Assembly (NCBI GenBank): GCA_004323695.1 | Contig: SCRU01000013.1 | Location: forward strand, 1 to 64,000 | DNA: 64,000 nucleotides | Direction of reading: 5' to 3' | Origin: Burkholderiaceae bacterium | Lineage (GTDB): Bacteria > Pseudomonadota > Gammaproteobacteria > Burkholderiales > Burkholderiaceae_C | In this document: piece after piece, positions 35,263 to 62,660 of the stretch | Position numbering within the stretch: position 1 is the first letter of the stretch | How the letters are laid out: each line of letters begins with the position of its first letter | Position numbers and translations under genes: made by a program | The notes under the pieces: generated by a model | Told to the model about the DNA's origin: nothing | Databases searched by the model: none | The model's input: only the letters and a program-made list of their open reading frames with translations

Positions 35263-35300
35263 TTCATTTTTTGACAGCATTCACAAGGAGATACCGCATC

Positions 35301-37131: not shown

Positions 37132-37149
37132 CAAGGCAGCAACGCCTTG
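37132..37149 (+). other. Small hairpin after xsc
   Basis: CAAGGC-agcaac-GCCTTG forms a 6-base stem just behind the xsc stop, without a T run. It may mark an RNA processing or stability point that separates high xsc expression from the genes downstream. It is weak evidence alone. Confidence 0.25.
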
Positions 37150-37288
37150 CAGTGGGTCTGGTCTAGCTGCTTTCCAGCGCGCGAATGCCCTCCGGCTTTC
37201 TCCGCGCGTGAGGTGCCGCGCAGCCGCCGCCGAGGATACAGGAGGGCCGTAGCGTTGGAACACAGACCGTGCCCACCAGGAGCAACTC

Positions 37289-38716: not shown

Positions 38717-38737
38717 CCCTATCGCCGCGGACCTCCC

Positions 38738-39700
38738 ATGAACGAGGATCTTCAGCAGCCTGACCCGCGCAACTCAGCGGTCGCGCACCCGCGGCTCGAC
38801 GAGCTCATACGGCGCGCGCGCGAACGGGCAGGTACCCGGGCAATGACGGTGGGTCTGGTATATCCGTGCGACAACCTTGCCGTGGACGCGGCTGCCCAGA
38901 TCGTTGCTGCCGGTATTGCCCGTCCGATATTGATTGGCCCGGCGCAGTCCATCGCCCGCGCTGCCGGGGCGGCTGGTGTGGATGTCGCGCAGATCGAAAT
39001 CATCGATACGCCCAACGCTGGGCCCGAAGCGGCACTGCGCGCGACCACGCTGGCGCGCGAGGGCGTCCTTGGCGCGCTGATGAAGGGAGCGTTGCATACC
39101 GATGAGCTGATGTCGGCCGTCGTGAACAAGGCGTCGGGATTGCGTGGTGATTCGCGCATCAGCCACGCGTTCGTGTTCGACCTGCCACGCTATCCGAAGC
39201 TTCTCGCGCTGGCCGATTGCGTCGTCAACATTGCGCCCAATCTCCAGACCAAGCGTGACATCGTGGGTAATGCCATCGCACTGTTGCAACGCATCGGCAT
39301 TGCACAACCCAAAGTCGGCATCGTCGCGGCGGTCGAGACTGTAAATCCGGCGATTCCCGCGACCGTTGATGCCCAGGCGCTGGCCCAGATGGCTCGGCAG
39401 GGCGCGTGGCCGGGCGCACTGGTGGAAGGCCCTCTCGGCTTCGACAATGCAATCTCCGCCGAGGCAGCGCGTATCAAGAAGATAGACTCGCAGGTGAGTG
39501 GCGATGCAGACTTGTTGATTATGCCGGACCTCAATGCCGGAAATATGCTGTACAAGAGCTTTAATTACATTGGCGGTGGCGACTGCGCTGGCCTGGTACT
39601 GGGAGCCAAGGTACCTGTGGTGCTGACTTCGCGCGCGGATTCGCTGCATTCCCGCATGGCGTCAGTGGCGCTGGCGGTGCTTGCGTCCTTACCCTTTTGA
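38738..39700 (+). CDS. pta: Phosphate acetyltransferase
   Basis: A 320-residue phosphotransacetylase of the short Pta/Ptb type. It should turn the acetyl phosphate made by Xsc into acetyl-CoA for the glyoxylate or TCA cycle. Family marks are VGLVYPCDNLAVDAAAQI near the start, the GALMKGALHTDELMSAVV region, and SGDADLLIMPDLNAGNMLYK with GLVLGAKVPVVLTSRAD at the end, forming the phosphate and CoA site. The pairing xsc-pta is found in nearly all Xsc pathways. Its stop overlaps the start region of the next gene. No strong ribosome site precedes ATG 38738, so coupling to the permease 21 bases upstream is likely. Confidence 0.93.
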   Translation: MNEDLQQPDPRNSAVAHPRLDELIRRARERAGTRAMTVGLVYPCDNLAVDAAAQIVAAGIARPILIGPAQSIARAAGAAGVDVAQIEIIDTPNAGPEAALRATTLAREGVLGALMKGALHTDELMSAVVNKASGLRGDSRISHAFVFDLPRYPKLLALADCVVNIAPNLQTKRDIVGNAIALLQRIGIAQPKVGIVAAVETVNPAIPATVDAQALAQMARQGAWPGALVEGPLGFDNAISAEAARIKKIDSQVSGDADLLIMPDLNAGNMLYKSFNYIGGGDCAGLVLGAKVPVVLTSRADSLHSRMASVALAVLASLPF

Positions 39701-39729
39701 CGACTCTCTCGAACGCCCAAGGATCTGCT

Positions 39730-44539: not shown

Positions 44540-44752
44540 ATGGTTCGAAGCTGGCCTAGTTTGCTCATCGGTTTCCTGATCCCCATGGTCCTGATCGTCG
44601 GCGGCATATTGGTTCTGGGACCGCTTCACGTCGTGGTCGCGGATTTCCCGCTGGTGTTCATCTGGATTTTTGCGTGCATGCCTTTGACATGGCTGTGTCT
44701 GTGGATTAGCTGGCGTTTCTTCGATCGCAAGTTCTATTTCAGTGAGGAGTGA
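44540..44752 (+). CDS. DUF3311 small membrane protein
   Basis: A 70-residue protein with two membrane helices (about 7-28 and 36-60) and a charged end. Such DUF3311 proteins are regularly encoded directly before a sodium:solute symporter, as here, and probably act as its small subunit. AGGAG lies 7 bases before ATG 44540. It ends 5 bases before the symporter gene. Confidence 0.8.
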   Translation: MVRSWPSLLIGFLIPMVLIVGGILVLGPLHVVVADFPLVFIWIFACMPLTWLCLWISWRFFDRKFYFSEE

Positions 44753-44757
44753 CACCA

Positions 44758-46373: not shown

Positions 46374-47351
46374 TCACGCCGCCTCTTGTCGGCCTTCTGA
46401 GGAATTCGCCCCGAAGATTGACCCGAGCAACTGCGCCGGCAAGCTCTGCCGCAACCCAATCGCGACTACTGCAGCGCCGCCAGTCGGTGCCACATTCGCC
46501 TTGCGCAGGGAGCCATGGCGGCCAGCAAACTGCAGTTCGGCCCAGTCATGCTCGTCGCTGCGCAGGATGCCCTTCAGACGCAGCACGCCTGCAGGCATGT
46601 CGCGCAACAACGCACGCAGGTCGGCCGCCGGGAAAACCCGTGTCGGACGACATGACCAAGTATCGAATTGGGTGCCATGGGCTGGATCGTCGTGTTCGTG
46701 GGCGTGACTACCCTCGGCATGCTCGTGCGGATCGCGGTGCGCCGGCGCGTCGGGCAGTGCCAGGCCGCTGAGCATCGGCAGCGGCACGCGCGCTTGTGTG
46801 GTCTCGAACTGCGGCGTGGCTCCGGCGATCGACGCGATCCAGTCACGCACGCGGGCGCGCTCGTCGTCCGCCGCGCGGTCGCATTGATTGACGACGATCA
46901 GATCGGCCGCTTTCAGCTGGCGTTCCAGCGTGTCGGACAGGAGCGGGTCGCGTGACTGTGCCAGCGCGACGCTTGCGTCAACCAGCACGACCACGCCGTC
47001 CAGGCTCAGTCCGGGGTCGGCACGGCCCATTTGCGCGATCCGCCATGGATCGGACACGCCACTGGCTTCGACCACCACCGCGTCGAATGGTGGCGTGGCC
47101 TCAAGCACGCGGATCAGGGCGCGGGTCAGGTCGTCGCCGATCTGGCAGCAGACGCAGCCGTTGGTCAGGGCCACCGTGTCGCCCGATGTCGATGCGATCA
47201 GGTCCGCGTCAATGTTGATGGCGCCGAAGTCGTTCACCAGCACTGCCATGCGTACGCCCCTGGCGTTGCTCAGCCAGTAGTTCAGCAAAGTGGTTTTTCC
47301 GGATCCGAGAAAGCCGCCGATCACCGTCAGCGGCAGGCGCTTTTTCGTCAT
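46374..47351 (-). CDS. CobW/COG0523 GTP-dependent metallochaperone
   Basis: A 325-residue G3E GTPase. The P-loop is GGFLGSGKTTLLN, the metal site CVCC is in LTNGCVCCQIGDDL, and a histidine-rich linker (DPHEHAEGSHAHEHDD) lies near 205-220. Such proteins deliver zinc or other metals to client enzymes. Its start lies 7 bases after the stop of a metal-dependent amidohydrolase gene, the most likely client. It is the last gene of the dipeptide-type ABC operon. A link with CobST is conceivable but not indicated. Confidence 0.88.
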   Translation of the reverse strand: MTKKRLPLTVIGGFLGSGKTTLLNYWLSNARGVRMAVLVNDFGAINIDADLIASTSGDTVALTNGCVCCQIGDDLTRALIRVLEATPPFDAVVVEASGVSDPWRIAQMGRADPGLSLDGVVVLVDASVALAQSRDPLLSDTLERQLKAADLIVVNQCDRAADDERARVRDWIASIAGATPQFETTQARVPLPMLSGLALPDAPAHRDPHEHAEGSHAHEHDDPAHGTQFDTWSCRPTRVFPAADLRALLRDMPAGVLRLKGILRSDEHDWAELQFAGRHGSLRKANVAPTGGAAVVAIGLRQSLPAQLLGSIFGANSSEGRQEAA

Positions 47352-47358: not shown

Positions 47359-49029
47359 TCACCCCTTGCGAGCTTCGAACACCCGGCCAGACAGCACTGT
47401 GCCCCATACCCGCACGTCCTTCAGCGCCATCGGATCCACTGCAAGCGGGTCATCTTCGAGCACACAAAAGTCGGCACGTTTACCACACTCGATGCTACCA
47501 ATTTCTTGGTCGAGTTTGAGCGTCCACGCCGGCCCCAGCGTGATTGCATGCAATGCCTGTGGCACGCTGATGCGCTGCGTCTCGCCCAGCACACGCCCGG
47601 ACGGAGTGACGCGATTGACCGCACACCAAGCCGTGAACAAAGGGCCGAGCGGCGTGACCGGAGCGTCGGAATGGATGGCGAGCGGCACGCCGGCCGCCAG
47701 CGCGCTGGCGCAGGCATCCATGCGGTGCGCGCGATCGGGTCCCATCGTCATCTCGAAGTGCTGGTCGCCCCAGTACCAGATGTGGTTGGTAAAGAGGTTG
47801 GCACACAGGCCCAGGGTGGCCATACGGCGGAACAGCGGCGCGTCGATCATCTGCCCGTGTTGCAAGGTGTGGCGATGATCGGGCCGTGGCGCACGCGTGA
47901 GCACGCGTTCGATCGCGTTGATGGCGACTTCGCTGGCCTCGTCAGCATTCGTGTGCGTATGGATCAACAGGCCCGCGCGGTGATAAGTCTCGAAATCGAC
48001 CTCGTATTGCGCTGGCGCAGTGACCCAGATGCCGTTCGGCGCGCCGTTGAAATATCCCGGCCAGCGCAACCGCGCCGAGAAGCCCTGAATCGATCCGTCG
48101 AGCATCATTTTCACGAGGCCATAGCGCAGTCTGTCGGTATTGCGAGAAACCAGACCTTTCACATGCTCGGCCCCGAGCGCAGCACCATGCGTGCCATGAA
48201 AGGCCTGGAACGCGGGCAGGATGCGGATGCTGCAATCGTCATCGGCAAGCGCCGATTCGAGGACCTTGCAATCGGCATCCGTGAGCCTGTTGACCAGGTC
48301 CGTCGCGGTCGTCACGCCCTGCATGCACGCGAGCGCGGCGAACGAGCGCACACCGTCCTCGGTCATCGGCGCGAGTACCCCGGTCTCGCCGATCTTGCGC
48401 ACCACCAGGAACATGGCGGCAGGCTCCTGCAACTCGCCTGTGGGCTCGCCGGCGTTCGCGCCGCCCTGGAACTTGACAACGCCTTCGACCTCGTTGTCAC
48501 GCGTGATATCGGCCAGCCGCAGCATCGCCGAGTTCACATTCATCATGTGTCCGTTGGCGTTGGTCACCACGATCCGGCGTGTTTTGCTGACACGGTCGAG
48601 GTGCTCCACCGTCATGCGTTCCCCGCCGAAGTAGATCGGGTCGAACCCCCACGCGATCAACGGCTCAGCGTCGCCCTTGCCGGCAGCGCGCATTTGCGCG
48701 TCGACTTCGCTCAAACGCGCCACCACCGCGTCCATCGACCGCAAGCCACGCCAGACCTTGCCGTTTGGATCGCGCCGGTCGAACCAGCCGAGGTAGTGCA
48801 TGTCCCACACGCTGCCTTCCTTCAGGTGGCAGTGTCCTTCGACCAGGCCGGGCATCAGCACCTTGTCTGCGAAGCGCCCGTCGAGCGTGTAGGTGCCCCA
48901 CGCGTGCATGCGATCGAGGTCGCCGACCGCAAGGATGCGCCCGTCACGCACCGCAACGTGCGTGGCCTCGGGTTGCATCGGGTTCATTGTGATGATCTTG
49001 CGGGCGGAATAGACGGTTGTGTTAGTCAT
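47359..49029 (-). CDS. YtcJ-like amidohydrolase
   Basis: A 556-residue metal-dependent amidohydrolase (amidohydrolase_3 group). The HxH metal site is H66 and H68 in GLVEGHCHLK; later ligands are in LIHTHTNADEA, LQHGQMID and HSDAPVTPLGPL. Known relatives cleave N-acyl or N-formyl bonds and similar amides, but the substrate cannot be read from sequence. In an operon with an oligopeptide-type ABC importer and a metallochaperone, in the middle of a sulfonate locus, it may release an aminosulfonate from an imported conjugate (inference). The frame is open to 49128 within dppF; ATG 49029 fits the family start. Confidence 0.82.
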   Translation of the reverse strand: MTNTTVYSARKIITMNPMQPEATHVAVRDGRILAVGDLDRMHAWGTYTLDGRFADKVLMPGLVEGHCHLKEGSVWDMHYLGWFDRRDPNGKVWRGLRSMDAVVARLSEVDAQMRAAGKGDAEPLIAWGFDPIYFGGERMTVEHLDRVSKTRRIVVTNANGHMMNVNSAMLRLADITRDNEVEGVVKFQGGANAGEPTGELQEPAAMFLVVRKIGETGVLAPMTEDGVRSFAALACMQGVTTATDLVNRLTDADCKVLESALADDDCSIRILPAFQAFHGTHGAALGAEHVKGLVSRNTDRLRYGLVKMMLDGSIQGFSARLRWPGYFNGAPNGIWVTAPAQYEVDFETYHRAGLLIHTHTNADEASEVAINAIERVLTRAPRPDHRHTLQHGQMIDAPLFRRMATLGLCANLFTNHIWYWGDQHFEMTMGPDRAHRMDACASALAAGVPLAIHSDAPVTPLGPLFTAWCAVNRVTPSGRVLGETQRISVPQALHAITLGPAWTLKLDQEIGSIECGKRADFCVLEDDPLAVDPMALKDVRVWGTVLSGRVFEARKG

Positions 49030-49064: not shown

Positions 49065-50132
49065 TCAGGCCGCGGGCATCGCAAGAGGAGCGTGGGGCCG
49101 GCCATCGACCAGGTCGACACGACGACACCGCACCCAGTGGTCGCTGGCTATTTCACGCAGCGGCGGCAGCTCGGACACGCAAGCTGGCTCCGCCACCGGA
49201 CAACGTCCTGCGAAGCGACAGCCCGCTGGCGGGTTGATCGGACTCGGTGGGTCGCCACTGAGCTTGATTCGTTGGGCGGCGTGCTTGCGCCCGCCGTGGA
49301 CAGTGGGCACCGCCGACATCAGCGCCACGCTATACGGGTGCAACGGGCTCGCGAAGAAGGCCTTGCGCGGCGCGCGCTCGACAATCTGACCCAGGTACAT
49401 CACCGCGATGTCGTCGCAAATGTGCTCGACCACGGCCATGTCGTGCGAGATGAAAAGGTAGGTCAAGCCGAGCTCGCGCTGGAGCCGTGCAAGTAGATTC
49501 AGGATCTGGGCACGGATCGCGATATCCAGTGCGGACACCGGCTCGTCGCATACAACCAGTTCAGGGTTTGTGGCCAACGCTCGTGCAATGTTGATGCGCT
49601 GGCGTTGGCCACCGGAAAACTGGTGTGGGAAAAGGTGCTGCTGCTCTGGCCGAAGGCCCACAGCGTTGAAGAGCTCTGCGACACGTTCGATGCGCTGCGC
49701 CGGCGTTCCCACCTGCATCAGGTCGAGCGGGGCACGCACGGTCGCGCCAGCGCGCTCGCGTGGGTTCAGCGACGAGAAAGGGTCCTGGAAGATGATCTGC
49801 AGGCGTGCGCGCGCCTTGCGCAGTGCTTCACCTTCGAGCGCGCCGAGGTTGGTGTCGCCGAGCTGGATGTGCCCGGCGGTGATTGGCGACAGGCGCATCA
49901 CCGCGAGTGCGGTGGTGGTCTTGCCCGAGCCGGATTCGCCTACGACCGCCAGTGTCGTGCCGCGTGCGATGTCAAACGTCACGCCATCGACAGCCCTGAC
50001 CACTTCGGGAGCCTGAAACCAGCCCGATTTATTGCGCGGAAAGTGGACGTGCAAGTCACTGACCGACAGCAGCTTGCCTGATGCCGCAGCTATTGGCTCG
50101 GTGTGCAATGCGGGTTTTGCCATCGTCGTCAT
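49065..50132 (-). CDS. Oligopeptide-type ABC transporter ATPase (DppF-like)
   Basis: A 355-residue ABC ATPase. Walker A GESGSGKTTTA, the signature FSGGQRQRINIARAL, and Walker B LVVCDEPVSALD are intact; the C-terminal cysteine-rich part (GCRFAGRCPVAEPAC) is the oligo/dipeptide-binding-ATPase extension found in DppF/OppF. It overlaps the DppD-like stop by 4 bases. It powers the importer together with the DppD-like protein. Confidence 0.93.
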   Translation of the reverse strand: MTTMAKPALHTEPIAAASGKLLSVSDLHVHFPRNKSGWFQAPEVVRAVDGVTFDIARGTTLAVVGESGSGKTTTALAVMRLSPITAGHIQLGDTNLGALEGEALRKARARLQIIFQDPFSSLNPRERAGATVRAPLDLMQVGTPAQRIERVAELFNAVGLRPEQQHLFPHQFSGGQRQRINIARALATNPELVVCDEPVSALDIAIRAQILNLLARLQRELGLTYLFISHDMAVVEHICDDIAVMYLGQIVERAPRKAFFASPLHPYSVALMSAVPTVHGGRKHAAQRIKLSGDPPSPINPPAGCRFAGRCPVAEPACVSELPPLREIASDHWVRCRRVDLVDGRPHAPLAMPAA

Positions 50133-51166
50133 GCGGCCACTGCCGTATCCAGCGCATGCAGCCAGCAGGCTACACCGTGCGCGCCGCTGTCGGCTGCAGG
50201 TACCGCTTGCGCACCGGCCACGAACATCGGCGGTACTTGCACGGCGCAGTGCGGCATCGCGTGAGGGCAGCGTTCACGAAACGCACAGCCGCTGCCCAGC
50301 TCCCAGATGGAAGGCACAACGCCCGTGATCTCGGCGAGGTCCACGCGCTCGTGCTGCAGGCTGCTGCCAAGTTCGGGCAGGCAATCGATCAGGCCCTGGG
50401 TGTAGGGATGACCCGGTTGCGACACAACCTCGTCGGTCGTGCCCTGCTCGATCACCCGGCCGGCGTACATCACGATCACCCGATCGGCCATTTCGGCAAT
50501 GGCTCCCATGTCGTGCGTGATGAGTATGATCGCAGTCCCTTTTTCGCGCTGCAGCTCGCGCAACAAGTCGAATATCTGCGCCTGCACCGTGACGTCCAGG
50601 GCCGTGGTGGGCTCATCCGCGATCAGAATGTCGGGACGGCACGCCAACGCCATTGCAATCATGACGCGCTGGCGCATGCCACCTGAAAGTTGATGGGGGT
50701 ACTCGTCGACGCGCCGCTCCGGGGCAGGGATGCCAACCTGCTGCAGCATCTCGATCGTGCGCGCGCGCGCCGCGGCGGTGTCCAGCCCCGCGTGCAATCG
50801 CAGCGACTCGCCAATCTGATTGCCGACGGTGAACACCGGGTTCAGCGCCGTCATGGGTTCCTGGAAAATCATCGAAATGCGATTGCCGCGCACTTTGCGC
50901 ATCTGGGCTTCGTCGGCCTGCACCAAATCCTGCCCCTGGAAAAGCACTCGCCCTCCACTGATGTTACCGGGCGGCGAGGGTATGAGCCGCAGCAACGCCA
51001 GCGCCGTCATGCTCTTGCCACAACCCGATTCACCGACCACGCCCAGCGTCTCGCCGCTCTTCAGTTCGAAATCGACGCCGTTCAGCACCAGCGCCTTGCC
51101 TCGGCGGGTCTTGAATTCCACGCGCAGGTCTTCGACCTGAAGCAGCGGTGCACTGGCGCTCGCCAT
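50129..51166 (-). CDS. Oligopeptide-type ABC transporter ATPase (DppD-like)
   Basis: A 345-residue ABC ATPase. Walker [12 protein letters not shown], the signature [15 protein letters not shown] and Walker [13 protein letters not shown] are present; the cysteine-rich C-terminus ([15 protein letters not shown]) is typical of DppD/OppD. ATG 51166 shares one base with the stop of the upstream permease gene. The longer frame to 51448 lies inside that permease gene. Confidence 0.93.
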
Positions 51167-52074
51167 TAACGTTCCCTCAGCTTCGGGTTGAGCGCATCGT
51201 TGAGGCCATCGCCGATCAGGCTGATGGCCAGCACGGTGATGAAAATCGCCAGCCCCGGAAAAGTCACGGCCCACCAGCACGACAGCACATAGGGCTGGCT
51301 CGCGCCAATCATCAAACCCCAGCTCATCTGGTTTGGATCGCTCAAACCGAGGAACGACAACCCCGCGGCAAACAGAATTGCACCTCCGATCGCCAGCGCG
51401 GATGAGACGATCAGCGGTGGCAGCGCGTTCGGCAGAATCACTTTCCACATGATGCGCGCGTTACCCGCACCGATGGCTCGCTCGGCACGCACGAACTCGA
51501 GATTCCGGAACCGGAAGAATTCGGCGCGGGTCAGGCGCGCGGTGCCGGGCCAGATGACGATGCCGATGGCAATGGTGACGGTGACCGGCGTTGGCGTGAA
51601 GAGCGACACTACCACCATCGCGAACAGGAGTGCCGGCAGCACCTGGAAAAATTCCATAATGCGCATCAGGATCGCGTCAACTTTCCCGCCGTAGTAGCCT
51701 GCGAACGCACCCAAGGTGATGCCAATGAGCACCGAGAGCGCTGCCGCAAATGCGCCCACCAGCAAGGTCGCACGGCCACCGTAGACGAGGGTTGTGAATA
51801 CGTCGCGGCCGAGGTAGTCGGTGCCCAGCCAGGCTCCGGCGCTAAAGGGCGGCGTGAACGGTGCCGCGCTGATCGCAAACGGGTCGGCATCCAGCACCCA
51901 GGGCCCGGCAATGGACACAATCACCACGATCAGAAGCAGCACGATGCCTGCAATGGCCGAGGGATTGCGCAAAAACATGCGCAGCGCCTCGGCGCCCGGG
52001 CTTTCGACTTTGAGTGTTGGCCGCTCGGGAGCGGCTACGGCGGCTGCAGTAACCGGGACTAAGGGCGAGCTCAT
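51166..52074 (-). CDS. Oligopeptide-type ABC permease (DppC-like)
   Basis: A 302-residue inner-membrane permease with six helices. The N-terminal cytoplasmic piece is followed by FLRNPSAIAGIVLLLIVVIV, then LGTDYLGRDVFTTLVYGGR, the hallmark of DppC/NikC, and the EAA loop ERAIGAGNARIMWKVILPNA. It overlaps the DppB-like stop by 4 bases (ATGA at 52074). Confidence 0.93.
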   Translation of the reverse strand: MSSPLVPVTAAAVAAPERPTLKVESPGAEALRMFLRNPSAIAGIVLLLIVVIVSIAGPWVLDADPFAISAAPFTPPFSAGAWLGTDYLGRDVFTTLVYGGRATLLVGAFAAALSVLIGITLGAFAGYYGGKVDAILMRIMEFFQVLPALLFAMVVVSLFTPTPVTVTIAIGIVIWPGTARLTRAEFFRFRNLEFVRAERAIGAGNARIMWKVILPNALPPLIVSSALAIGGAILFAAGLSFLGLSDPNQMSWGLMIGASQPYVLSCWWAVTFPGLAIFITVLAISLIGDGLNDALNPKLRER

Positions 52075-53045
52075 GATGTCCTCATTCGAGGGTCGATCCA
52101 TCGATAACAAAGGTCGGTCAGAAGGTTCATCACGACGACGACGATGGACGATAGCAACAGCAAGCCGAGGATGGTCGGGTAATCACGCCGTAGCACGGAG
52201 TCAAATGCGAGGCGGCCGAGGCCCGGCCAGTTGAAAACAGTTTCGACCAGGATCGCGCCGGAGAGCACATTGCCGAACTGCATCCCCAGGATGGTGATCA
52301 CCGGCATCAGGGCGTTGCGCAGAGCATGTTTGTACAGTACAACCCCATCGGATAAGCCCTTGGCGCGCGCCGTTCGAATGAAATCCGATCCCAGTACATC
52401 GAGTGTCGATGAGCGAGCCAGCCGGCTGTATTGCGCCAGGTAGATCAGGCTCAGTGACGTCATGGGCAGCACCAAATGGTACAGGACGTCCACGGCCGCT
52501 TTCAGGCCACCACCACTCGCATCGATGGCGTGCATGCCCGAAACCGGCAGGATGGGGACGACCGATGCAAACAGGATCATCAACATGATCCCGGTCCAGA
52601 ACACGGGGGCTGCAAAGCCGAACATGGATAACACGGTGATGCACTGCGACAACAGTCCGTTCGGTTTGCGAGCCGAGAGCACCCCCAACGCCGTCCCCAG
52701 AACAAACGCAAACAGCACCGAACTCAGCACCAGCAACAAGGTGGCCGACAGGCGCTGCATTACGAGGTGCGAGACCGGCTGGTTAAAAAAATACGAGTAA
52801 CCGAGATCCCCGTGCAGCACCTTGTCGAGATACACGCCGAGTTGCACCGGCAGCGGTTTGTCAAGACCGTACTGGGTACGCAGTTGCGCCATCAACTCGG
52901 GTGACATGCCGCCACTGGCGCCCGCGATGGTGGCCACCGGATCACCCGGGGCGGCATGCACCAGCACAAAATTGAGTACCACGACCGCGAGCACCAGGGC
53001 AATGCCCTGGAGCAGGCGGGAGAGCAGCGCGCGCGCGAATTTCAT
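52071..53045 (-). CDS. Oligopeptide-type ABC permease (DppB-like)
   Basis: A 324-residue permease with six helices. The DppB/NikB pattern is clear: NFVLVHAAPGDPVATIAG near the N-terminus, YGLDKPLPVQLGVYL, and the EAA loop RTARAKGLSDGVVLYKHALR. It is the first membrane gene after the binding-protein gene, 72 bases downstream of it. Confidence 0.94.
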   Translation of the reverse strand: MKFARALLSRLLQGIALVLAVVVLNFVLVHAAPGDPVATIAGASGGMSPELMAQLRTQYGLDKPLPVQLGVYLDKVLHGDLGYSYFFNQPVSHLVMQRLSATLLLVLSSVLFAFVLGTALGVLSARKPNGLLSQCITVLSMFGFAAPVFWTGIMLMILFASVVPILPVSGMHAIDASGGGLKAAVDVLYHLVLPMTSLSLIYLAQYSRLARSSTLDVLGSDFIRTARAKGLSDGVVLYKHALRNALMPVITILGMQFGNVLSGAILVETVFNWPGLGRLAFDSVLRRDYPTILGLLLLSSIVVVVMNLLTDLCYRWIDPRMRTS

Positions 53046-53117: not shown

Positions 53118-54713
53118 TTACGTGAGGTAGACCTCATCGTAAGGCGACATTGGCCCCCAGATGGTTGTTGGTACATTACCGACCTTTTTGCCGGTCACGG
53201 TGTGGTACGGAATCACATTGATGTAGTCGATGGGCAGGTCGTCGGTCACAATCTTCTGGAACGTGGCGTAGTAGGCCTTGCGTACCGTCGGGTCGAGAGT
53301 GGTGGCCGCATCGTTCAGGAGTTCGTCGACCTTCGGATTTCGGTACGACATTGTGTTGGTCCAGACGATTGGTTTGATATTGGTCGACAGGTAAGTGCGG
53401 GCCACGCCAATCACGGGATCGCCCCAGTTGAAGACAATATCCATCGCCAGATCGAAATCGTGGGTCGCCATGCGCTTGGCCCAACTCGGGAAGTCGGCCG
53501 AGGTACGGACTTCAACTGCAATGCCGACCTTTTTTAGCTGGCCGCGGATGTATTCGGCCACGGTCTTTTGCTGGTCATCTACGCCCGGCAGGTAGTCGAT
53601 TGTCAGCTTGAATCGCTCGCCGTTTGCTCCCACCTTGTACCCGGCGGCGTCGAGCATGGCGGCAGCTTTTTTCAGATCATAGGGATACCGGTGGAGATCC
53701 TGTGTCGCGAACGGACTGCTGGCAATGATGGGGCCATCGTCCGGCACCGCAAACCCTCCCATGAGCGCTTTGGTGATGAAGTTCTTGTCGATCGCGGTGG
53801 CGATGGCCCTGCGCACCTGAACGTCGGAGAGCGGCTTCTTGGCGGTGTTGAACTCCATCCAGTTCAGCGCGCCAATGCCTTCATAGCCCCTGGCCGTAAG
53901 TGTGAATTGCTTTTCGTTGGCCAGGCGTCGCAAGTCCGTCGGCACGCTGACAAAGGGCATCATATTGATGTCGCCGCGCTCCAGGCTTAGCATCAGGCTG
54001 GCACTATCAGGGTTGATGCTGATGATGACCTTGTCCAGATAGGGCTTGCCGGGCAGGAAGAATTTGTCAAAGCGCTCCATCACGATGCGCTGACTGGGGT
54101 TGAACTCGACAACCTTGAAGGGCCCCGAGCCAATCACATTCACCGAATTGCGTGGATGGGTCAGCAGGCTCTGTCCGTCATCGTAAATATGCTTGGGCAG
54201 GATGGGGCATAGCGCAGGCGACATGCACAGCAGCAAGGCTGGATGCGGTGTGCTCGTCTGAATCACGGCAGTGTGCGCGTCGGGAGTGTCGACCCGCACG
54301 ACCGGCGCCATCATCGTCTTGAAGGGGTGATTCGCCTTGATCGCCATCACGGTGAATGCAACGTCGGCCGAGGTGACGGGCTGGCCGTCGTGGAACAGCG
54401 CGTTCTTGCGCAGGTTCAGCGTCAGCGACTTGCCGTCCTCGGCCATCTTCCACGATTCCGCCAGATAGGGCTGGGGGTTCCATTTGTCGTCGAAGCGCAG
54501 CGGGCTCGCGAAGATCTGGGTGGAAGGCATTGCGGTAGCGACGCCCGATTGAACTGCACCATTGAGATGTCGCGGCACCTGGGTGGTGCCGAGTACGAAA
54601 GTACCCCCACGTTTGGGCTCCTCTGCCAAGGCTGACAACGGAAACGTGCCTGCGGCGGCGGCCAGCAGCGCAAAGTCTAATGTCTGGCGGCGAGTGAAGC
54701 GGGGATTCATCAT
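53118..54713 (-). CDS. Extracellular solute-binding protein, family 5
   Basis: A 531-residue periplasmic binding protein of the oligopeptide/dipeptide/nickel/opine family. The N-terminus MMNPRFTRRQTLDFALLAAA is a twin-arginine-type signal with cleavage after a small-residue stretch near 32. The core has AESWKMAEDGKSLTLNLRKN and DVAFTVMAI, typical of family 5. The ligand is unknown. ATG 54713 has GGAG 8 bases upstream. It leads the operon down to the cobW-like gene, and a GCCAG-repeat element lies 88 bases upstream. Confidence 0.92.
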   Translation of the reverse strand: MMNPRFTRRQTLDFALLAAAAGTFPLSALAEEPKRGGTFVLGTTQVPRHLNGAVQSGVATAMPSTQIFASPLRFDDKWNPQPYLAESWKMAEDGKSLTLNLRKNALFHDGQPVTSADVAFTVMAIKANHPFKTMMAPVVRVDTPDAHTAVIQTSTPHPALLLCMSPALCPILPKHIYDDGQSLLTHPRNSVNVIGSGPFKVVEFNPSQRIVMERFDKFFLPGKPYLDKVIISINPDSASLMLSLERGDINMMPFVSVPTDLRRLANEKQFTLTARGYEGIGALNWMEFNTAKKPLSDVQVRRAIATAIDKNFITKALMGGFAVPDDGPIIASSPFATQDLHRYPYDLKKAAAMLDAAGYKVGANGERFKLTIDYLPGVDDQQKTVAEYIRGQLKKVGIAVEVRTSADFPSWAKRMATHDFDLAMDIVFNWGDPVIGVARTYLSTNIKPIVWTNTMSYRNPKVDELLNDAATTLDPTVRKAYYATFQKIVTDDLPIDYINVIPYHTVTGKKVGNVPTTIWGPMSPYDEVYLT

Positions 54714-54800
54714 TTGCAAAACTCCTGAACAGTAAGCATTTGAGATTGCCCCACGAAGGAGGCACTGTCAACCATGCAAACGCCCAACCGGAGGTCGGAT

Positions 54801-54834
54801 GAAGGAGCCAGTGACGAGGAATCTATGGAGCCAG
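54801..54834 (-). promoter_or_regulatory. MocR-type operator before the dipeptide-type ABC operon
   Basis: GAAGGAGCCAG begins the element, and a second GCCAG starts exactly 23 bases after the first (54807 and 54830). It aligns with elements at 56791 and 61150. It is about 88 bases upstream of the binding-protein start. Confidence 0.55.
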
Positions 54835-54875
54835 AGCGTCCCAACGTGGGAGTTAACGGCCCCGGCAGTTCCGAA

Positions 54876-56315
54876 TCATTTCTCGTCCTGAAACCAGTAC
54901 CACTTGTACAGGAAACGCTGGCCCAGGCGGCGGAAAGGGGCAAAAGCTTGCGAACGCACCAGGCCGAACATATTTGGATACTCCAGCGGCGAGTCGTAGA
55001 TAGGGAGCTTGAACACCTCACGCCCAGCGTCCTGACCCGCCACGCGTTCGGCCAGCCGCTTGCCGGCCCAAGTTGAGAACGACACGCCGTTGCCGCCATA
55101 GCCTACTGCGTACCAGACGTTTTGCGCCGGGTCGGGTTGGGTAATGCGCGGCATCATGTCGTGCGCCACGTCGACCCAGCCCCACCAGGAGTAGTCGATC
55201 TGGATGCCTGCGAGCGGCGGGAATTTGCGTGCAATCCCGTCGGTGAGCAGTTTCAGATGGACCGGGTCCTCGGCGTCGGCACCTGTGACAGCGCTTCGGC
55301 TGCCGAGCTGCAGGCGATTCCCTTTCAACAGGCGGTAATAAAAGCGCAGCGTGCGGGTGTCCGTCATAAAAGTCTGCGAACGAAAGTTGCAGGCTTTCAT
55401 CTCGGCGTCTGTCAGCACGCGTGTCACCACCGAGTTCGACAAGATCGGCAAAATCTTGTTTTTCAACAACGGATTCAGGCGCTGGCCGGTATATCCGCCA
55501 GTGCACACCGCAACGCGCTTGGCACGCACGGTACCTCCAGGAGTGCGAAGATAATGCACCCCGTTTTGCGTCCCCCAGCCCTGGACCGGACTGGCGGTGT
55601 GAACCTTGACTCCAAGGGATCGCGCCCTGCGGAGCAGCCCGAAAGTGAGCTTGAGAGGATGGACGCCAACGCCTTCGGCCTCGAGCATCGCGCCCGCATT
55701 TTCGCGCTCGTCGCAGTAGTCGCGCCGCACCTCTTCGACGCTGAGCATGCGCGTTTGATAGCCAAACATCTCGCGCATGACGCGGGCCTCCTCGCGCAGG
55801 TACTCCAGTTTTTCGGGCCGGTGTGCCAGATAAAGATGGCCGCCATCGAAGGCGTCGCAGTCGATTTCGTTGGTCAGCGCCTTGAAATTCTCGAAGCCGG
55901 TCCGGATCTCGATATCGAGTTTCTTTGCTACGTCCAGTCCCCAGCGGGCTATCCATTGTGAGCGTTTGAGCCGGCCACTCGCATTCTGGCCCTGGCCACC
56001 GCTGCGACTCGAGCAGCCCCACGATTCCTGGTTTGCTTCCAGCACGAGAGCCTGAATGCCGTGCTCCTGTGCGAGGTACAGGGCTGTGGAAATGCCGGTC
56101 GAGCCGGAGCCGATAATCACGACGTCGGCGTCCGTGTCGTGCGTGATCGGGCCGTCATCTTCCGGTGGCGTGCCGGCGCTGGCGACCCAGTAGGTCGGCG
56201 CGTAGGCGCGGCCGGTTCCCGGGTTGGGCGCAACGAGGGGGTCGTATTGTGGGTCGTAGCGTTTGTCGGCGGGCAAGTCTCCGCTCGAGCTGTTCAGGGT
56301 TTGAGTCAACGCCAT
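54876..56315 (-). CDS. DAO-family FAD oxidoreductase (amine oxidase/dehydrogenase-like)
   Basis: A 479-residue flavoprotein of the DadA/PuuB type. The FAD site GSGSTG (69-74) is in DADVVIIGSGSTGISTALYL, and CSSRSGGQGQNASGR follows as in gamma-glutamylputrescine oxidase-like enzymes. The N-terminal YWVASAGTPP is another mark of that group. It probably oxidises a primary or secondary amine to an aldehyde; in this setting taurine or an N-substituted taurine giving sulfoacetaldehyde is the attractive substrate (inference). ATG 56315 has GGAG upstream. It follows the NTF2-like gene by 13 bases and shares its promoter. Confidence 0.82.
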   Translation of the reverse strand: MALTQTLNSSSGDLPADKRYDPQYDPLVAPNPGTGRAYAPTYWVASAGTPPEDDGPITHDTDADVVIIGSGSTGISTALYLAQEHGIQALVLEANQESWGCSSRSGGQGQNASGRLKRSQWIARWGLDVAKKLDIEIRTGFENFKALTNEIDCDAFDGGHLYLAHRPEKLEYLREEARVMREMFGYQTRMLSVEEVRRDYCDERENAGAMLEAEGVGVHPLKLTFGLLRRARSLGVKVHTASPVQGWGTQNGVHYLRTPGGTVRAKRVAVCTGGYTGQRLNPLLKNKILPILSNSVVTRVLTDAEMKACNFRSQTFMTDTRTLRFYYRLLKGNRLQLGSRSAVTGADAEDPVHLKLLTDGIARKFPPLAGIQIDYSWWGWVDVAHDMMPRITQPDPAQNVWYAVGYGGNGVSFSTWAGKRLAERVAGQDAGREVFKLPIYDSPLEYPNMFGLVRSQAFAPFRRLGQRFLYKWYWFQDEK

Positions 56316-56328
56316 GACAATCTCCGGA

Positions 56329-56730
56329 TTATCTGGCTGCCGGCAGATTCGGCCGGGCTTTGCGGAATGCATTCTTCACGGCGATCTTGCCGTTTTTGAG
56401 GGTAAACAGGTCGACGCCATCGGCCTCGATCCGGCTACCGTCGGCCGCCGTACCGGTGAACGTCCATTGCGAGACGCCGAAGTCTCCGTCGACAAAGTGC
56501 TGCCCGTTGATCCACTGCGCATCTGGCACCGCTTGCCAGGCGCCAGCAAAGGCCTTTCGTACCGCGTCCCTGCCGCTGAAGCGGGTACCACAAGCATCGG
56601 ATCCGCCGATGGACTGGAACACGCAGTCGTCGCTCATAAAGCTCATGAGCGCATCAACGTCGTGGCGGTTCCAGGCGTCACTGAAAGCGGCCAGTGTGGC
56701 GGCGGTGAAGGGTTTGGGGTTTTCGCTCAT
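56329..56730 (-). CDS. NTF2/SnoaL-like protein
   Basis: A 133-residue protein with the NTF2-like fold: AFSDAWNRHDVDALMSFMSDD, then GRDAVRKAFAGAW and GVDLFTLKNGKIAVKNAF. The group contains isomerases, dehydratases and binding proteins; no catalytic assignment is possible. AGGAG precedes ATG 56730. It is the first gene of the unit with the FAD oxidoreductase and is divergent from the MocR regulator gene by 127 bases. The frame open to 57048 is opposite mocR and not coding. Confidence 0.82.
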   Translation of the reverse strand: MSENPKPFTAATLAAFSDAWNRHDVDALMSFMSDDCVFQSIGGSDACGTRFSGRDAVRKAFAGAWQAVPDAQWINGQHFVDGDFGVSQWTFTGTAADGSRIEADGVDLFTLKNGKIAVKNAFRKARPNLPAAR

Positions 56731-56790
56731 TGGTGCTCCTGAGGGTTTGATAACAATATTCAACAAGCATAGACAGCTTGACCGTGGTGC

Positions 56791-56824
56791 GATAGGGCCA
56801 GATGACCGGATTCGGGCGTGCCAG
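56791..56824. promoter_or_regulatory. MocR-type operator in the divergent mocR gap
   Basis: GATAGGGCCAG begins the element, with GCCAG at 56797 and again at 56820, 23 bases apart, and ATTCGG between them. A further CTGGCCCAA lies at 56844-56852, just before the mocR start. Position suits control of both divergent units. Confidence 0.6.
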
Positions 56825-56857
56825 CATGAATAGGCGGTGTAAACTGGCCCAAGCATC

Positions 56858-58369
56858 ATGGCCAATCCGCTAGCTACCCAGTGGGCGCAACTGTTCGTGC
56901 TGCCCGATGAACCTGCGCTGCCGCTGCAGACCAGGTTGCGGCTCGCCATCGTTCGCCCGATTCTTGACGGGCGTCTGAACGCGGGAGCCACGATGCCGTC
57001 GTCGCGCGAATTGTCATCGCGGCTGGGGTTGAGCCGCAACACCGTCACTGCGGCCTACCTGCAGTTGATGGACGAAGGTTTCCTGGAGGCGCGCCCACGC
57101 AGTGGTGTGTTCGTGGCGCCGAATGCTCGCCCGGTTTCCGCCGCGCAAGCCCAGCCGCAGAATGACACGGCCCGGTTTCCACCGGACTGGACCGCGCGTG
57201 TACTGCGTTCACTGACGGATCGTCCCCCACTGGCCAAACCCGAACAATGGCGTGCCTACCCGTATCCTTTCGTCTACGGGACGTACGATCCGCAACTGTT
57301 TCCTACCGAAGATTTCCGCGAATGCTGCGTGCGCAGTCTGGCGCGCGCACAACTGCCGCATTGGACGCTGGATTTCGAAACTGGCGACGTCATTGACTTG
57401 ATCGAGCAAATCCGCACCCGGCTTCTTCCCCAGCGCGGCGTGTTTGCGTTGAAAGAGGAAATCATGGTCACCGTTGGCGCCCAGCATGCGTATTACCTGC
57501 TTGCTGACGCCCTGTTCGACGATCGGACCCGCGTGGGCCTGGAGGAGCCTGGTCATCCGCATGCGCGCAACAGTTTCGCGCTGCGCAAGCCGAAGTGGGT
57601 CGAACTGCCGGTGGACGACAACGGCGTGGTCGTGGCGGGGCTGCCGGAGCTGGACTATCTGTTCGTCACGCCGTCGCACCAGAGTCCGACCACGGTGACA
57701 CTCAGTCTCGACCGGCGTCGGTGCTTGCTGCGCGAGGCCGGGCAGCGGGACTTCGTGATCATCGAGGACGACTATGAGGCGGAGAATCTGTACGCTGGAG
57801 AACCGATGCCGGCGCTGAAAAGCCTGGACCCCAGTGGCCGGGTGATTTACATCGGCTCGGTCTCGAAAAGTCTTTCGCCGGTGCTGCGGCTGGGTTACAT
57901 TGTCGCTCCTCAGGCGCTGATCAAGGAACTGCGCGTGATCCGGCACGCCATGGTGCGGCACCCCAGCGCATTTCTGCAACATGCCTATGCGCTATTCCTG
58001 TCGCTCGGCCATCATGATTCTCATGCGCGGCGTGTCAACGCGGCGATGCAGGAGCGGCTCGAACTGGCCGCGCGGGCGCTGCGTGAACATCTGCCGGCGT
58101 TCGAGTTCACGCTCCCACAGGGAGGGGCCTCCATTTGGGTGCGAGCGCCGGCCTGGGTCGATGCCGACGAGCTCGCGCTGCTGGCGCGTGGCCATGGCGT
58201 GCTGATTGAGGCCGGCCCGGTTTTTTTTTCCAAGCCTCCCTATCCGTGTCCGTTCTTCCGGTTGCGACTCTCTTCCATCGTGGCTGCGCAGATCCCCGCG
58301 GGTGTGCGCGCGCTGGCGCTCGCCGTTGATGAGCTGGCTCAGGGGCGGGGTGCTCGGTCGTCGGGATAA
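56858..58369 (+). CDS. MocR/GntR-type regulator with aminotransferase domain (TauR/PdxR-like)
   Basis: A 503-residue chimera. Residues 20-90 are a GntR winged helix (LNAGATMPSSRELSSRLGLS, then TVTAAYLQLMDEGFLEARP). The rest is a fold-type I aminotransferase domain with the PLP lysine in YIGSVSKSLSPVLRLGYIV and IIEDDYEAEN before it. Regulators of this class sense amines through PLP: PdxR senses PLP, GabR GABA, and TauR taurine. Between the FAD oxidase unit and tauCAB a taurine-type ligand is likely. A shared operator (entries at 54801, 56791, 61150) supports a local regulon. Confidence 0.88.
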   Translation: MANPLATQWAQLFVLPDEPALPLQTRLRLAIVRPILDGRLNAGATMPSSRELSSRLGLSRNTVTAAYLQLMDEGFLEARPRSGVFVAPNARPVSAAQAQPQNDTARFPPDWTARVLRSLTDRPPLAKPEQWRAYPYPFVYGTYDPQLFPTEDFRECCVRSLARAQLPHWTLDFETGDVIDLIEQIRTRLLPQRGVFALKEEIMVTVGAQHAYYLLADALFDDRTRVGLEEPGHPHARNSFALRKPKWVELPVDDNGVVVAGLPELDYLFVTPSHQSPTTVTLSLDRRRCLLREAGQRDFVIIEDDYEAENLYAGEPMPALKSLDPSGRVIYIGSVSKSLSPVLRLGYIVAPQALIKELRVIRHAMVRHPSAFLQHAYALFLSLGHHDSHARRVNAAMQERLELAARALREHLPAFEFTLPQGGASIWVRAPAWVDADELALLARGHGVLIEAGPVFFSKPPYPCPFFRLRLSSIVAAQIPAGVRALALAVDELAQGRGARSSG

Positions 58370-58376
58370 ATGTCTG

Positions 58377-58394
58377 TGCGGTGCGTGCACCGCA
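58377..58394. terminator. Possible hairpin between mocR and tauB ends
   Basis: TGCGGTGC-gt-GCACCGCA is a perfect 8-base inverted repeat between the converging mocR and tauB genes. No T run follows, so its strength as a terminator is uncertain. Confidence 0.35.
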
Positions 58395-58407
58395 GGCGGC
58401 GCGTCGA

Positions 58408-59157
58408 TCAATGCGAGAGAATCGCCATCGCGCGTTTTTTCAGGTCGAGAAAATGGGCATCGAACGCACTTTCCGCGGTGCGGGGCCGTTTTAGTTCGAT
58501 GGGGGTGTCGAGAGCGACCCGGCCGGGCCGCGCGCTCAACACTACCAGACGCGTACCCAGCACGATGGCTTCGTCAATATCGTGGGTAATGAATACGATC
58601 GTGCAGCGCAACTGTTCCCACAGCGAAACCAGGAAAGTCTGCATGGAACTGCGGGTTTGCGCATCGAGCGCGCCGAACGGCTCGTCCATCAGCAACACCT
58701 TCGGTTTCATGACGAGCGCGCGCGCGATCGCGACGCGTTGTTGCATGCCGCCAGACAATTCATAGGGTTTGTGCGAGGCAAAACCGTCCAGCCCGATCGT
58801 GTGCAGGATGTCAGAGCTGGCCCGCCGCCGCTGCGCCTTGTCGACGCCCTGCAGCGACAGCCCGAATTCAATGTTGTCTGAGACATTGAGCCAGGGATAC
58901 AGCCCCGCCTGCTGGAACACCACCACGCGGTCGGCACCCGGGGTATCCTTTTGCTCGCCGTCGATGAGGATCGAGCCCTTCGACGGCGTGGTCAGTCCGG
59001 CCAGCAGATGCAACAATGTGGTCTTGCCGCAGCCTGAAGAGCCGAGGACCGTGACGAACTCCCCGCCCTCGAACTGCAGGCTGATGTTCTCGAGCGCGGT
59101 GGTAGCACCGAACGTCTTGTACAGCGAATCGATGACAATGTGCACGTTCGGCTCCAC
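58408..59157 (-). CDS. tauB: Taurine/sulfonate-type ABC transporter ATPase
   Basis: A 249-residue ABC ATPase of the nitrate/sulfonate/taurine group. Walker A GSSGCGKTTLLHLLAG, the Q-loop VVVFQQAGLYPWL, the signature LSGGMQQRVAIARAL, and Walker B VLLMDEPFGALD are complete. It starts with GTG at 59157, 8 bases after the tauA stop. Gene order here is C-A-B rather than the usual A-B-C. Confidence 0.82.
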   Translation of the reverse strand: MEPNVHIVIDSLYKTFGATTALENISLQFEGGEFVTVLGSSGCGKTTLLHLLAGLTTPSKGSILIDGEQKDTPGADRVVVFQQAGLYPWLNVSDNIEFGLSLQGVDKAQRRRASSDILHTIGLDGFASHKPYELSGGMQQRVAIARALVMKPKVLLMDEPFGALDAQTRSSMQTFLVSLWEQLRCTIVFITHDIDEAIVLGTRLVVLSARPGRVALDTPIELKRPRTAESAFDAHFLDLKKRAMAILSH

Positions 59158-59165
59158 CGGCGAGA

Positions 59166-60194
59166 TTAATGCGACAGGAATTCCGCGTACTGCGGGGCGA
59201 CGTTGGCGTGGAAATCCGAGACCGGCGACTGGATACGGCCGATCTGCTGCAGCACCTTGGCCGTGTTGACCAGGGTCTGGTAGGTGGCTGAACTCTCGAC
59301 GCTCTTGCCGCTGCCCATGACGTTCTGGCTGGTCTGATCCTTGCCGGAGAAGATTTCGTAGCCGGCCAACTGGGTGCGCGCCATCGGCACGGTCACGCCG
59401 GTTTGTTCAGCCATCACCTGCAGGGACTTTTCTGGATCCTTGATCGTGGCCTGGTAACCCGCGTCAAGCGCGGCGACGAAGCCACGCACCAGATCGGGGT
59501 GCGCCTGGGCCCACTTCGCGTTGGCGATGCATACGTTGTAGCTGGACGCAGTGCGGGGCAGATCGGCGTCGGTCTTGATCACCTTGCCGCCCGCTTCGCG
59601 CAGCGCGCTGAACACCGGATCCCACACGATCGCTGCGTCGATGTTGCCCGTGACCCACGACGTGCGCATTTGCGGCGGCGCCATGTTGATTTGCGTTACC
59701 GCACCATAGGGTACCTTGGCTTCGGCCAGAAACGTGGCAAGTTCGAACGATGCCTGCGATCCGGCAACGATGGCAATTTTGTGCCCCGCAAGACCGGCGA
59801 CGTCCTTGATGCCGCTGTCGGGCTTGACCACGATGCCCGCCGCCTGGGTATAGCGCTCCTGGTTGTACACGATGGTCATTGGCAGCCCCTGCGCGATGGC
59901 GGTCACCAGCGGCGGAACGCCCAGACCACACATGAAGTTCAGGCTGTTCGACGCCAGCGCGCTCATCGCCGCCGGGCCCGAACTGAACATCTTGTACTGA
60001 ACGTTCGCATCGATGTGCTTCTCGAACATTTTCTCGCCCATCGACACCATGTAGGGATCGGCGCCGTTGTTTTCGTAGCCAATGATCACGTCGGGCTTGG
60101 ACGCCGCCGACGCCGGCCCCATCGGGGCGAGCGCGGCGCCGACCACGAGTACGAGCCCGGCCAGTTTGCCCCATCCATCTGATTGCATCATCAT
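59166..60194 (-). CDS. tauA: Taurine/sulfonate-type ABC substrate-binding protein
   Basis: A 342-residue periplasmic binding protein. Residues 1-31 form a signal peptide ending in PASAA. The core resembles TauA/SsuA: ALASNSLNFMCGLGVPPLV, KPDSGIKDVAGLAGHKIAIV, and GNIDAAIVWDPVFSALREAG. Ligand is inferred as taurine or a related sulfonate from family and neighbourhood; nitrate, thiamine-precursor or other ligands occur in the wider family. AAGGAG precedes three successive ATGs (60194, 60191, 60188). Confidence 0.8.
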   Translation of the reverse strand: MMMQSDGWGKLAGLVLVVGAALAPMGPASAASKPDVIIGYENNGADPYMVSMGEKMFEKHIDANVQYKMFSSGPAAMSALASNSLNFMCGLGVPPLVTAIAQGLPMTIVYNQERYTQAAGIVVKPDSGIKDVAGLAGHKIAIVAGSQASFELATFLAEAKVPYGAVTQINMAPPQMRTSWVTGNIDAAIVWDPVFSALREAGGKVIKTDADLPRTASSYNVCIANAKWAQAHPDLVRGFVAALDAGYQATIKDPEKSLQVMAEQTGVTVPMARTQLAGYEIFSGKDQTSQNVMGSGKSVESSATYQTLVNTAKVLQQIGRIQSPVSDFHANVAPQYAEFLSH

Positions 60195-60209
60195 TTATCT
60201 CCTTTTGGT

Positions 60210-61046
60210 TTAGATGTTTCCGCGCCACGGCACCACGGCGCTTTCAATTTTTCGAATGATCAACTCCATGCCGTATCCGATGAGCCCGATGATCACGATG
60301 CCGACGATCACGATGCTTACTTGCAAGGCCTGGCCGGCAAACTGAACCAGCCAGCCCAGGCCGCTACTGGCCGCGATCAATTCGGCTGCAACCAGGCAGG
60401 TCCAGGCGACGCCGATGCCCACACGCATCGCGGTGAAGATCTCCGGCAGTGCCGACGGCAACACCACCTTGCGGAAAATCTGCGCGTTGCTTGCCCCTAG
60501 CGTTCTGGCCACCGAAATGCGCAGTGGCGGCGTGCTCTTCACCCCGGACATGGTGCCGATGATGATCACTGGAATGGTCCCCACCAGGATCAAAACGATC
60601 TTGGGAAGTTCTCCGATGCCGAACCAGACCACCAGCAACGGGATGTACGCGAGCGGCGGCACCGGGCGAACGAACTGCAGCAGAGGATCGATGATGTCGA
60701 AAATGAATTTGTTGCGCGACATCATCAGTCCGATCGGCACGCCGATGACAATCGCGCCGACGAACCCGATGAGGATGCGCAGGCAACTCACATAAATGTC
60801 GGCGGCCAGGGTCTGCCCGCCATAGCCCTGACGCAGGATCTCAACCAGCGACTTCCACACCGCAACCGGCGACGGCAAGGCAAATGCCGGGAAAATGCCG
60901 GCCAGGCTCACCAGCTGCCAGATCACGAGCAAGCCGATGATGACGAGAGTGGTGGCCCAATTGAAACGCAACGCCATCCGATTTTTCGGCTGCGCTTCGG
61001 CTTTCGCCGAGACCGGCTTCGGCGGCGCGGGCGATTCGGATATCAC
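60210..61046 (-). CDS. tauC: Taurine/sulfonate-type ABC permease
   Basis: A 278-residue permease with six helices of the SsuC/TauC type: LPSPVAVWKSLVEIL at the start of the core, and the EAA loop ARTLGASNAQIFRKVVLPSALPEIF. GTG 61046 is used, with AGGAG 7 bases before it. It is the first gene of the C-A-B operon. A GCCAG-repeat operator lies about 104 bases upstream. Confidence 0.85.
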   Translation of the reverse strand: MISESPAPPKPVSAKAEAQPKNRMALRFNWATTLVIIGLLVIWQLVSLAGIFPAFALPSPVAVWKSLVEILRQGYGGQTLAADIYVSCLRILIGFVGAIVIGVPIGLMMSRNKFIFDIIDPLLQFVRPVPPLAYIPLLVVWFGIGELPKIVLILVGTIPVIIIGTMSGVKSTPPLRISVARTLGASNAQIFRKVVLPSALPEIFTAMRVGIGVAWTCLVAAELIAASSGLGWLVQFAGQALQVSIVIVGIVIIGLIGYGMELIIRKIESAVVPWRGNI

Positions 61047-61149
61047 TTGCTACTCCTGTTCATGTATCGCCCCTTTTCTGATTCGCCACGGCCTAATTTG
61101 ACGCTGGGTTGGTGAATGCCCGCAATTTGGCTACTTGCCGCAGAAATTG

Positions 61150-61183
61150 GATAGAGCCAGATCAGGGCATTCGGTTGGGCCAG
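61150..61183 (-). promoter_or_regulatory. MocR-type operator before tauCAB
   Basis: GATAGAGCCAG begins the element; GCCAG occurs at 61156 and 61179, exactly 23 bases apart, with ATTCGG between, matching the mocR site closely. The rest of the 234-base gap (61047-61280) shows no reading frame and no clear -35/-10 pair. Confidence 0.6.
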
Positions 61184-62600: not shown

Positions 62601-62660
62601 GTGTTGTCTCCTGTTTTGAATGCCCGATTGGGCGGTTTGTTGTACTGCTCCTCAGACTCG

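Follow-up and report, generated by a model that had tools for sequence, protein, structure and literature searches.

In a window of 64,000 nucleotides from a Burkholderiaceae bacterium (positions 1 to 64,000 of contig SCRU01000013.1), we found that three 34-base elements, each with a pair of GCCAG repeats, are almost certainly, on comparative evidence, the landing sites of one regulator, the MocR-type protein TauR. It is highly probable that they are the TauR operators of a taurine/N-acetyltaurine regulon, at which TauR would work by class II activation. As a set of TauR operators, this clearly exemplifies a known type of switch, and TauR, its CTGG repeats and much of the gene content have already been predicted for the Comamonadaceae (PMC5320631). 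What is new here is the promoter geometry shared by the targets (prior publication of the fixed -10 geometry was not specifically searched for) and, apparently, control by TauR of an N-acetyltaurine operon without the LysR regulator NaaR. No published link between TauR and an N-acetyltaurine regulon was found among the matches listed, and PMC4334477 lists tauR and the naa genes apart, in a single annotation table. The predicted operators and the regulator gene are as follows.

54801..54834, minus strand: predicted TauR operator of the naaA-like binding-protein operon (CTGG boxes along the target strand; kept in congeners G005, G004 and G001)
56791..56824, minus strand: predicted TauR operator between tauX (minus) and tauR (plus)
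61150..61183, minus strand: predicted TauR operator of tauCAB (the congeners' different tauABC likewise has a similar repeat upstream)
56858..58369, plus strand: tauR, MocR subfamily (GntR winged helix plus aminotransferase domain)

A sequence-only reading of the window had described these elements, with GCCAG pairs 23 bases apart, as the operators of a MocR-type regulon, and we confirmed their positions and spacing exactly. All three are intergenic among the genes as called in this analysis. The minus-strand starts lie 88, 61 and 104 bases away, as had been stated, provided that the binding-protein gene begins with the ATG at 54713. When both strands of the window were searched for GCCAG-N18-GCCAG, these three elements and no others turned up; across 100 shuffles of the window the mean was 0.44 matches, and three were reached in 2 of the 100. 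The bare pattern occurs at 76 places in the 3.8-Mb genome (13 for a backward control), so that the bare pair is weak evidence alone, and we rejected it as a genome marker. Two extended models were also used, the sequence-only model R1 (34 positions, 55 sites including the window's three) and model R2 (52 sites from relatives, the window's three excluded). In scans of the organism's own genome, in which the best 150 of 5339 (R1) and 4761 (R2) first-look candidates were scored, the window's three sites came top with R1 at expect values (E) of 5e-4 to 1.9e-3 (next candidate 0.68) and were still top with R2 at 0.0013 to 0.0049 (next 0.55). The expectation that the element would not be scattered genome-wide was thus borne out by the 34-base model.

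To follow the element in relatives, sites were gathered upstream of homologous genes in 80 loci picked by regulator similarity. The collection left out sites with ≤3 mismatches from one already taken and one malformed row of 60 (the tauA-type site of L170), and four more tauA-type sites were kept out of the models by choice, so that 55 of 59 usable sites were used. The counts left out upstream stretches of <150 bases, family-5 binding-protein (SBP5) matches of <66% identity and tauA matches without tauB nearby. By one pattern, a repeat in the target orientation at 22 or 23 bases was present at 69 of 75 NTF2-like, 48 of 50 tauA-like and 11 of 30 binding-protein promoters, and in the opposite orientation, at the same loci and by the same pattern, at 0 promoters of each type. 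Control spacings of 12 to 40 in the target orientation gave means of 1.6, 1.0 and 0.2 matches, respectively, with maxima of 10, 6 and 2. The predicted conservation at orthologous promoters therefore held for tauXY and the tau transporter but only in part for the third operon.

The congeners G001, G004 and G005 carry an orthologous MocR gene (78-86% identity), and all three keep both the tauX/tauR site and the binding-protein-operon site with diverged spacers, some of these sites having T for G in the first box. Scanned with R1, G004 gave two clear locus sites (E 0.0014 and 0.0063) and a third at 0.23. Among 25 loci with more distant tauR homologues (40-51% identical, one near 70%), counted by one looser pattern that accepts any fourth box base, tauX/tauY were divergent in 17, with a site in each direction in 17/17, and tauXY were co-oriented in 2, with a target-orientation site in 2/2; the tauX/tauY pair was absent in the other 6. 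Boxes identical to the published TauR consensus CTGGACYTAA, in the same 34-base layout, were seen in several distant relatives (9 of the 25 loci were inspected for box sequence, mostly those that a stricter pattern had missed); the window boxes have CTGG and some later bases of this consensus but C at position 5. At L128 and L129, where tauR is located separately, the site remains with tauXY. Taken together, the genome scans with R1 and R2 and the 80 and 25 loci support the regulon that had been proposed.

The regulator had been described as a TauR-type chimera. The TauR-type guess was right, and the supposed chimera is merely the normal MocR layout of a GntR winged helix plus an aminotransferase domain, with SxSK and EDDY motifs common to the window regulator and the Sinorhizobium meliloti, Cereibacter and Caballeronia proteins. 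When the S. meliloti tau-locus protein (strain ml47), named TauR on the strength of its tau neighbours, was searched against the whole own genome, the top match was 56891-58327 (43% identity, 6.6e-110) and the next stood at 8e-29; in the reverse search, made in plasmid records only, the window regulator recovered the S. meliloti tau-locus regulator. The window regulator is an orthologue of that protein and therefore TauR. The NCBIfam PdxR equivalog model also scores 56858-58369 above its cut-off (331 bits against 320), a likely misannotation trap. We rejected PdxR and the control of vitamin B6 genes, because the only above-background sites precede the tauXY, tauCAB and naa-like units.

Those units comprise the following taurine genes.

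56329..56730, minus strand: tauX, NTF2/SnoaL-like taurine dehydrogenase subunit (54% identity to the S. meliloti protein)
54876..56318, minus strand: tauY, flavin adenine dinucleotide (FAD; DAO-type) taurine dehydrogenase subunit (56% identity to the S. meliloti protein)
60210..61046, minus strand: tauC, ATP-binding cassette (ABC) permease (best NCBIfam match the taurine TauC, under the curated cut-off)
59166..60194, minus strand: tauA, sulfonate/taurine-type binding protein (matches under curated cut-offs)
58408..59157, minus strand: tauB, ABC ATPase (best NCBIfam match the taurine ATPase, under the curated cut-off)

The records of S. meliloti and Cereibacter sphaeroides place a MocR gene beside tauABC or tripartite ATP-independent periplasmic (TRAP) transporter genes together with genes for an NTF2-family protein and an FAD oxidoreductase, to which the window proteins are 54-56% identical; xsc is among the annotated genes of the C. 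sphaeroides stretch and was matched in that of S. meliloti. TauXY has been named as a dehydrogenase (PMC5320631), and PMC4254191 describes TauY as a subunit of taurine dehydrogenase and S. meliloti TauR as an activator. Because of these identities and this naming, the unit that had been given the generic label NTF2-like/FAD oxidoreductase, and that stands as a target, is TauXY. The tauABC of the congeners is a non-orthologous transporter (its tauA is 26-27% identical to that of the window tauCAB), and the repeat lies upstream of both, as if within the genus the operator had been kept while the taurine-type transporter was exchanged. Sites are found at both tauXY and tauCAB, with xsc in the same window.

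The third target had been read as a family-5 binding-protein operon. It kept its place as a target, and its identity needed correction, in that its gene content looks like that of the N-acetyltaurine operon naaABB'CC'ST. The percentages below are identities to the Paracoccus aminovorans homologues.

53118..54713, minus strand: naaA-like family-5 binding protein (52%)
52071..53045, minus strand: naaB-like permease (57%)
51166..52074, minus strand: naaB'-like permease (63%)
50129..51154, minus strand: naaC-like ATPase (59%)
49065..50132, minus strand: naaC'-like ATPase (62%)
47359..49029, minus strand: naaS-like amidohydrolase, Amidohydro_3 (51%)
46374..47351, minus strand: naaT-like CobW-type GTPase, a putative metallochaperone that we take to be COG0523 (42% over about half its length)

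The P. aminovorans locus holds the naa gene set plus a LysR gene, and all seven of its structural proteins match the window operon at 42-63% identity. For Ruegeria pomeroyi, Table 4 of PMC4334477 gives naaT as metallochaperone, naaS as N-acetyltaurine amidohydrolase, naaR as LysR regulator and naaABB'CC' as transporter. A naaR-like LysR gene was not found in the window (best E 0.67) and was absent at 1e-8 from 35 of 35 relatives' loci, several of which end at contig edges and not all of which hold the transporter genes. At 27 of 30 loci the operon follows tauY, its start lying less than 1 kb beyond. For a comparison of TauR loss with loss of the naa operator, only the congener G002 was informative, since the G003 contig ends inside the operon; in G002, which has no close tauR, the region upstream of naaA shows no CCAG pair, and in the other seven genomes without a TauR match no naaA was found beside the amidohydrolase gene in the stretch read. 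The G002 locus (L286) keeps the binding-protein, amidohydrolase and metallochaperone genes; the intervening permease/ATPase genes and the operator were not found in the 17 kb read. Published TauR regulons of the Comamonadaceae already list oppABCDF, COG523 and COG1574 (PMC5320631), and we infer that these opp/COG523/COG1574 members are N-acetyltaurine genes. We somewhat favor the view that in Rhodoferax- and Variovorax-like Comamonadaceae TauR took over a NaaR-less operon for N-acetyltaurine uptake and hydrolysis, either via an operator of its own or by read-through from tauXY.

The promoters share a geometry that bears on how TauR would act. With offsets counted from the operator end towards the target gene, 18 of the 22 tauX and 6 of the 8 naaA-type promoters had their best-scoring -10 at 19; among tauA-type promoters this was so by score in 9 of 28, and CAAAGT, CACAGT or CAGAGT stood exactly there in 16 of 28. 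The corresponding -35 hexamer (17-base spacer) overlaps the end of that operator's proximal box and matches TTGACA in 1-3 of 6 bases at tauX (n = 22), 2-3 at tauA (n = 28) and 1-4 at naaA (n = 8). Scoring of the -10 alone was clear, unlike joint -35/-10 scoring, which gave a partial peak at -4 (5 of 8 naaA-type, 6 of 28 tauA-type and 2 of 22 tauX promoters, plus 3 of the last at -3). CTGGA-type repeats 22 bases apart are followed by TATTTC at offset 19 in S. meliloti and by CAATAT at offset 18 in C. sphaeroides. At the promoters with this -10 position, most of the tauX and naaA-type and about half of the tauA-type ones, the -35 is overlaid by the proximal box, an activator-like arrangement; fixed orientation, a -10 at constant distance and a weak -35 are typical of activators. 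The window promoters are as follows.

56766..56771, minus strand: -10 hexamer TATGCT of tauXY (19 bases past the operator; fits the rule)
56840..56845, plus strand: -10 hexamer TAAACT of tauR (on the opposite side of the operator, at a distance of 15 bases)
61124..61129, minus strand: possible -10 CAAATT of tauC (offset 20; the offset-48 hexamer scores slightly better)
54743..54771, minus strand: naaA-like operon promoter, TTGACA-17-CAATCT (29 bases beyond the operator)

We propose that TauR, a GntR/MocR-type protein with a pyridoxal 5'-phosphate (PLP)-type domain, would bind two CTGG-type boxes in head-to-tail arrangement, spaced by about two helical turns and read towards the controlled gene. 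The proximal box would lie over the -35 of a weak--35 promoter, with the -10 fixed 19 bases beyond, as at the tauXY, tauABC and naaA-type promoters of many relatives, and because of this arrangement TauR would provide the -35 contact that the promoter lacks (class II activation). In the presence of taurine, the likely ligand, TauR would turn on import through tauCAB, the taurine dehydrogenase tauXY and the naa-like operon, that is, import and hydrolysis of what may be N-acetyltaurine. The naaA-like operon has its promoter 29 bases further on, with a CTGTCAAC block that does not vary between the window and three congeners (four sequences in all), and here TauR would have to activate from a more distant upstream position. 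The tauX operator adjoins the -10 of tauR, and TauR may repress itself there; autorepression is only a possibility, because the distance of the tauR -10 varies between relatives.

The convergence point of the pathway is also encoded in the window, beside a pta-like gene.

35271..37127, plus strand: xsc, sulfoacetaldehyde acetyltransferase (1061 bits, cut-off 676)
38738..39700, plus strand: pta-like phosphate acyltransferase

No TauR site was found before xsc in the own genome, and we set aside TauR control of xsc there, the divergent IclR-type gene being the likelier regulator; of the 17 xsc loci read, two (L178 and L189) have a site ahead of xsc. The stretch 34341-39700 holds xsc, this IclR-type gene, a gene for a gamma-aminobutyric acid (GABA)-permease-like protein and the pta-like gene. 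Within the sulfonate cluster there are also a molybdopterin oxidoreductase and a sodium:solute symporter (39697-42684 and 44749-46215), and a homologous symporter (43% identical) adjoins an amidohydrolase/GTPase pair in Caballeronia (L270). An AMP-binding enzyme, an aldehyde dehydrogenase and a major facilitator superfamily (MFS) transporter are encoded at 26187-30589, a set that we take to resemble sulfoacetate (sau) genes, and a comparable set adjoins the taurine genes of L270. At 61281-64000 there are an MFS transporter and a glucose-methanol-choline (GMC) oxidoreductase, whose reading frame runs past the window end; of the 80 relatives' loci, 6 have both close to tauR (many stretches end earlier), and the pair may be an isethionate module.

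Several observations weigh against a TauR-activated regulon as set out above. The window boxes are CTGGC, not CTGGA, the window tauCAB scores under the curated cut-offs of the taurine families, a clear site is lacking at 15 of the 17 xsc loci, and under the counted pattern 19 of 30 naaA-type promoters show none. The window naaA-like promoter breaks the offset-19 rule and the tauC promoter fits it weakly, and the distance of the tauR -10 from the operator varies widely among relatives. The counts from the 80 loci are not independent, because the loci are related and were picked by regulator similarity. By itself the model is weak outside the window genome, and congener scans are noisy: the G001 sites scored E 0.027, 0.24 and 0.46 with R1, the latter two within background, and G036 and G037, which are from other families and have no close tauR, gave chance matches at 0.05 and 0.06.

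Could the repeats simply have arisen by chance in GC-rich DNA? The 76 genomic copies of the bare pattern would allow it, but the top ranking of the window sites by both models, the conservation specific to one orientation, which already contradicts it, and the sites at distant loci make chance a negligible prospect. It is very unlikely that the elements belong to another regulator, with the MocR gene adjacent by accident; IclR-type regulators do occur in this kind of cluster, and TauR binding to the elements is a prediction, but the element stands at tauXY even where the tauR homologue is only ~40-50% identical, the S. meliloti and C. sphaeroides TauR loci have repeats of the CTGGA type between the corresponding genes, and the congeners G002 and G003, which have no tauR match at 1e-100, yield background only with R1 (best E 0.31 and 0.27).

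That TauR binds the sites and acts chiefly as a repressor, like many GntR proteins, we consider improbable. An operator that overlaps the -35 can keep RNA polymerase out, and the shared intergenic site also borders the tauR -10, but the orientation, -10 distance and weak -35 described above typify activators. TauR of S. meliloti likewise acts as an activator (PMC4254191). A larger, though still minor, chance attaches to the idea that only the tauXY and tau-transporter sites function, the binding-protein-operon element being a remnant and the operon being expressed with tauXY or otherwise. The 11 of 30 count and the closeness of the operon to tauY favor it; set against them are the retention of the site in G001, G004 and G005 despite diverged flanks and, in the window genome, an R2 score as good as those of the other two. 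We therefore prefer activation by TauR from all three operators.

Compared with the published TauR regulons of Rhodobacter capsulatus and S. meliloti, the window has an orthologous regulator, the tauABC, tauXY and xsc gene set and direct CTGG repeats at a spacing of about two turns of the helix, in keeping with the whole-turn spacing described for TauR operators, and opp, COG523 and COG1574 are listed for the Comamonadaceae (PMC5320631). It differs in its CTGGC-type boxes 23 bases apart (CTGGA-type, 22, at the S. meliloti and C. sphaeroides loci) and in an xsc without a detected TauR site. With the naa operon of R. pomeroyi (PMC4334477) and the P. aminovorans locus it shares the binding protein, two permeases, two ATPases, amidohydrolase and metallochaperone, whereas in place of a naaR-like LysR gene it has a TauR-type operator. 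By sequence match, GabR of Bacillus subtilis has the same MocR architecture. GabR has a direct-repeat operator and a dual role, and its ligand and target genes differ from those of the window TauR.

These results turn three short repeats into a testable regulon and give the MocR-type TauR a precise promoter geometry, with a box over the -35 and the -10 at 19 bases. They also offer a substrate for the opp/COG1574/COG523 genes, which the published TauR reconstruction gives under the labels of a putative oligopeptide transporter and of COG families. If the proposed takeover is true, one taurine sensor would govern the use of both free and acetylated taurine.

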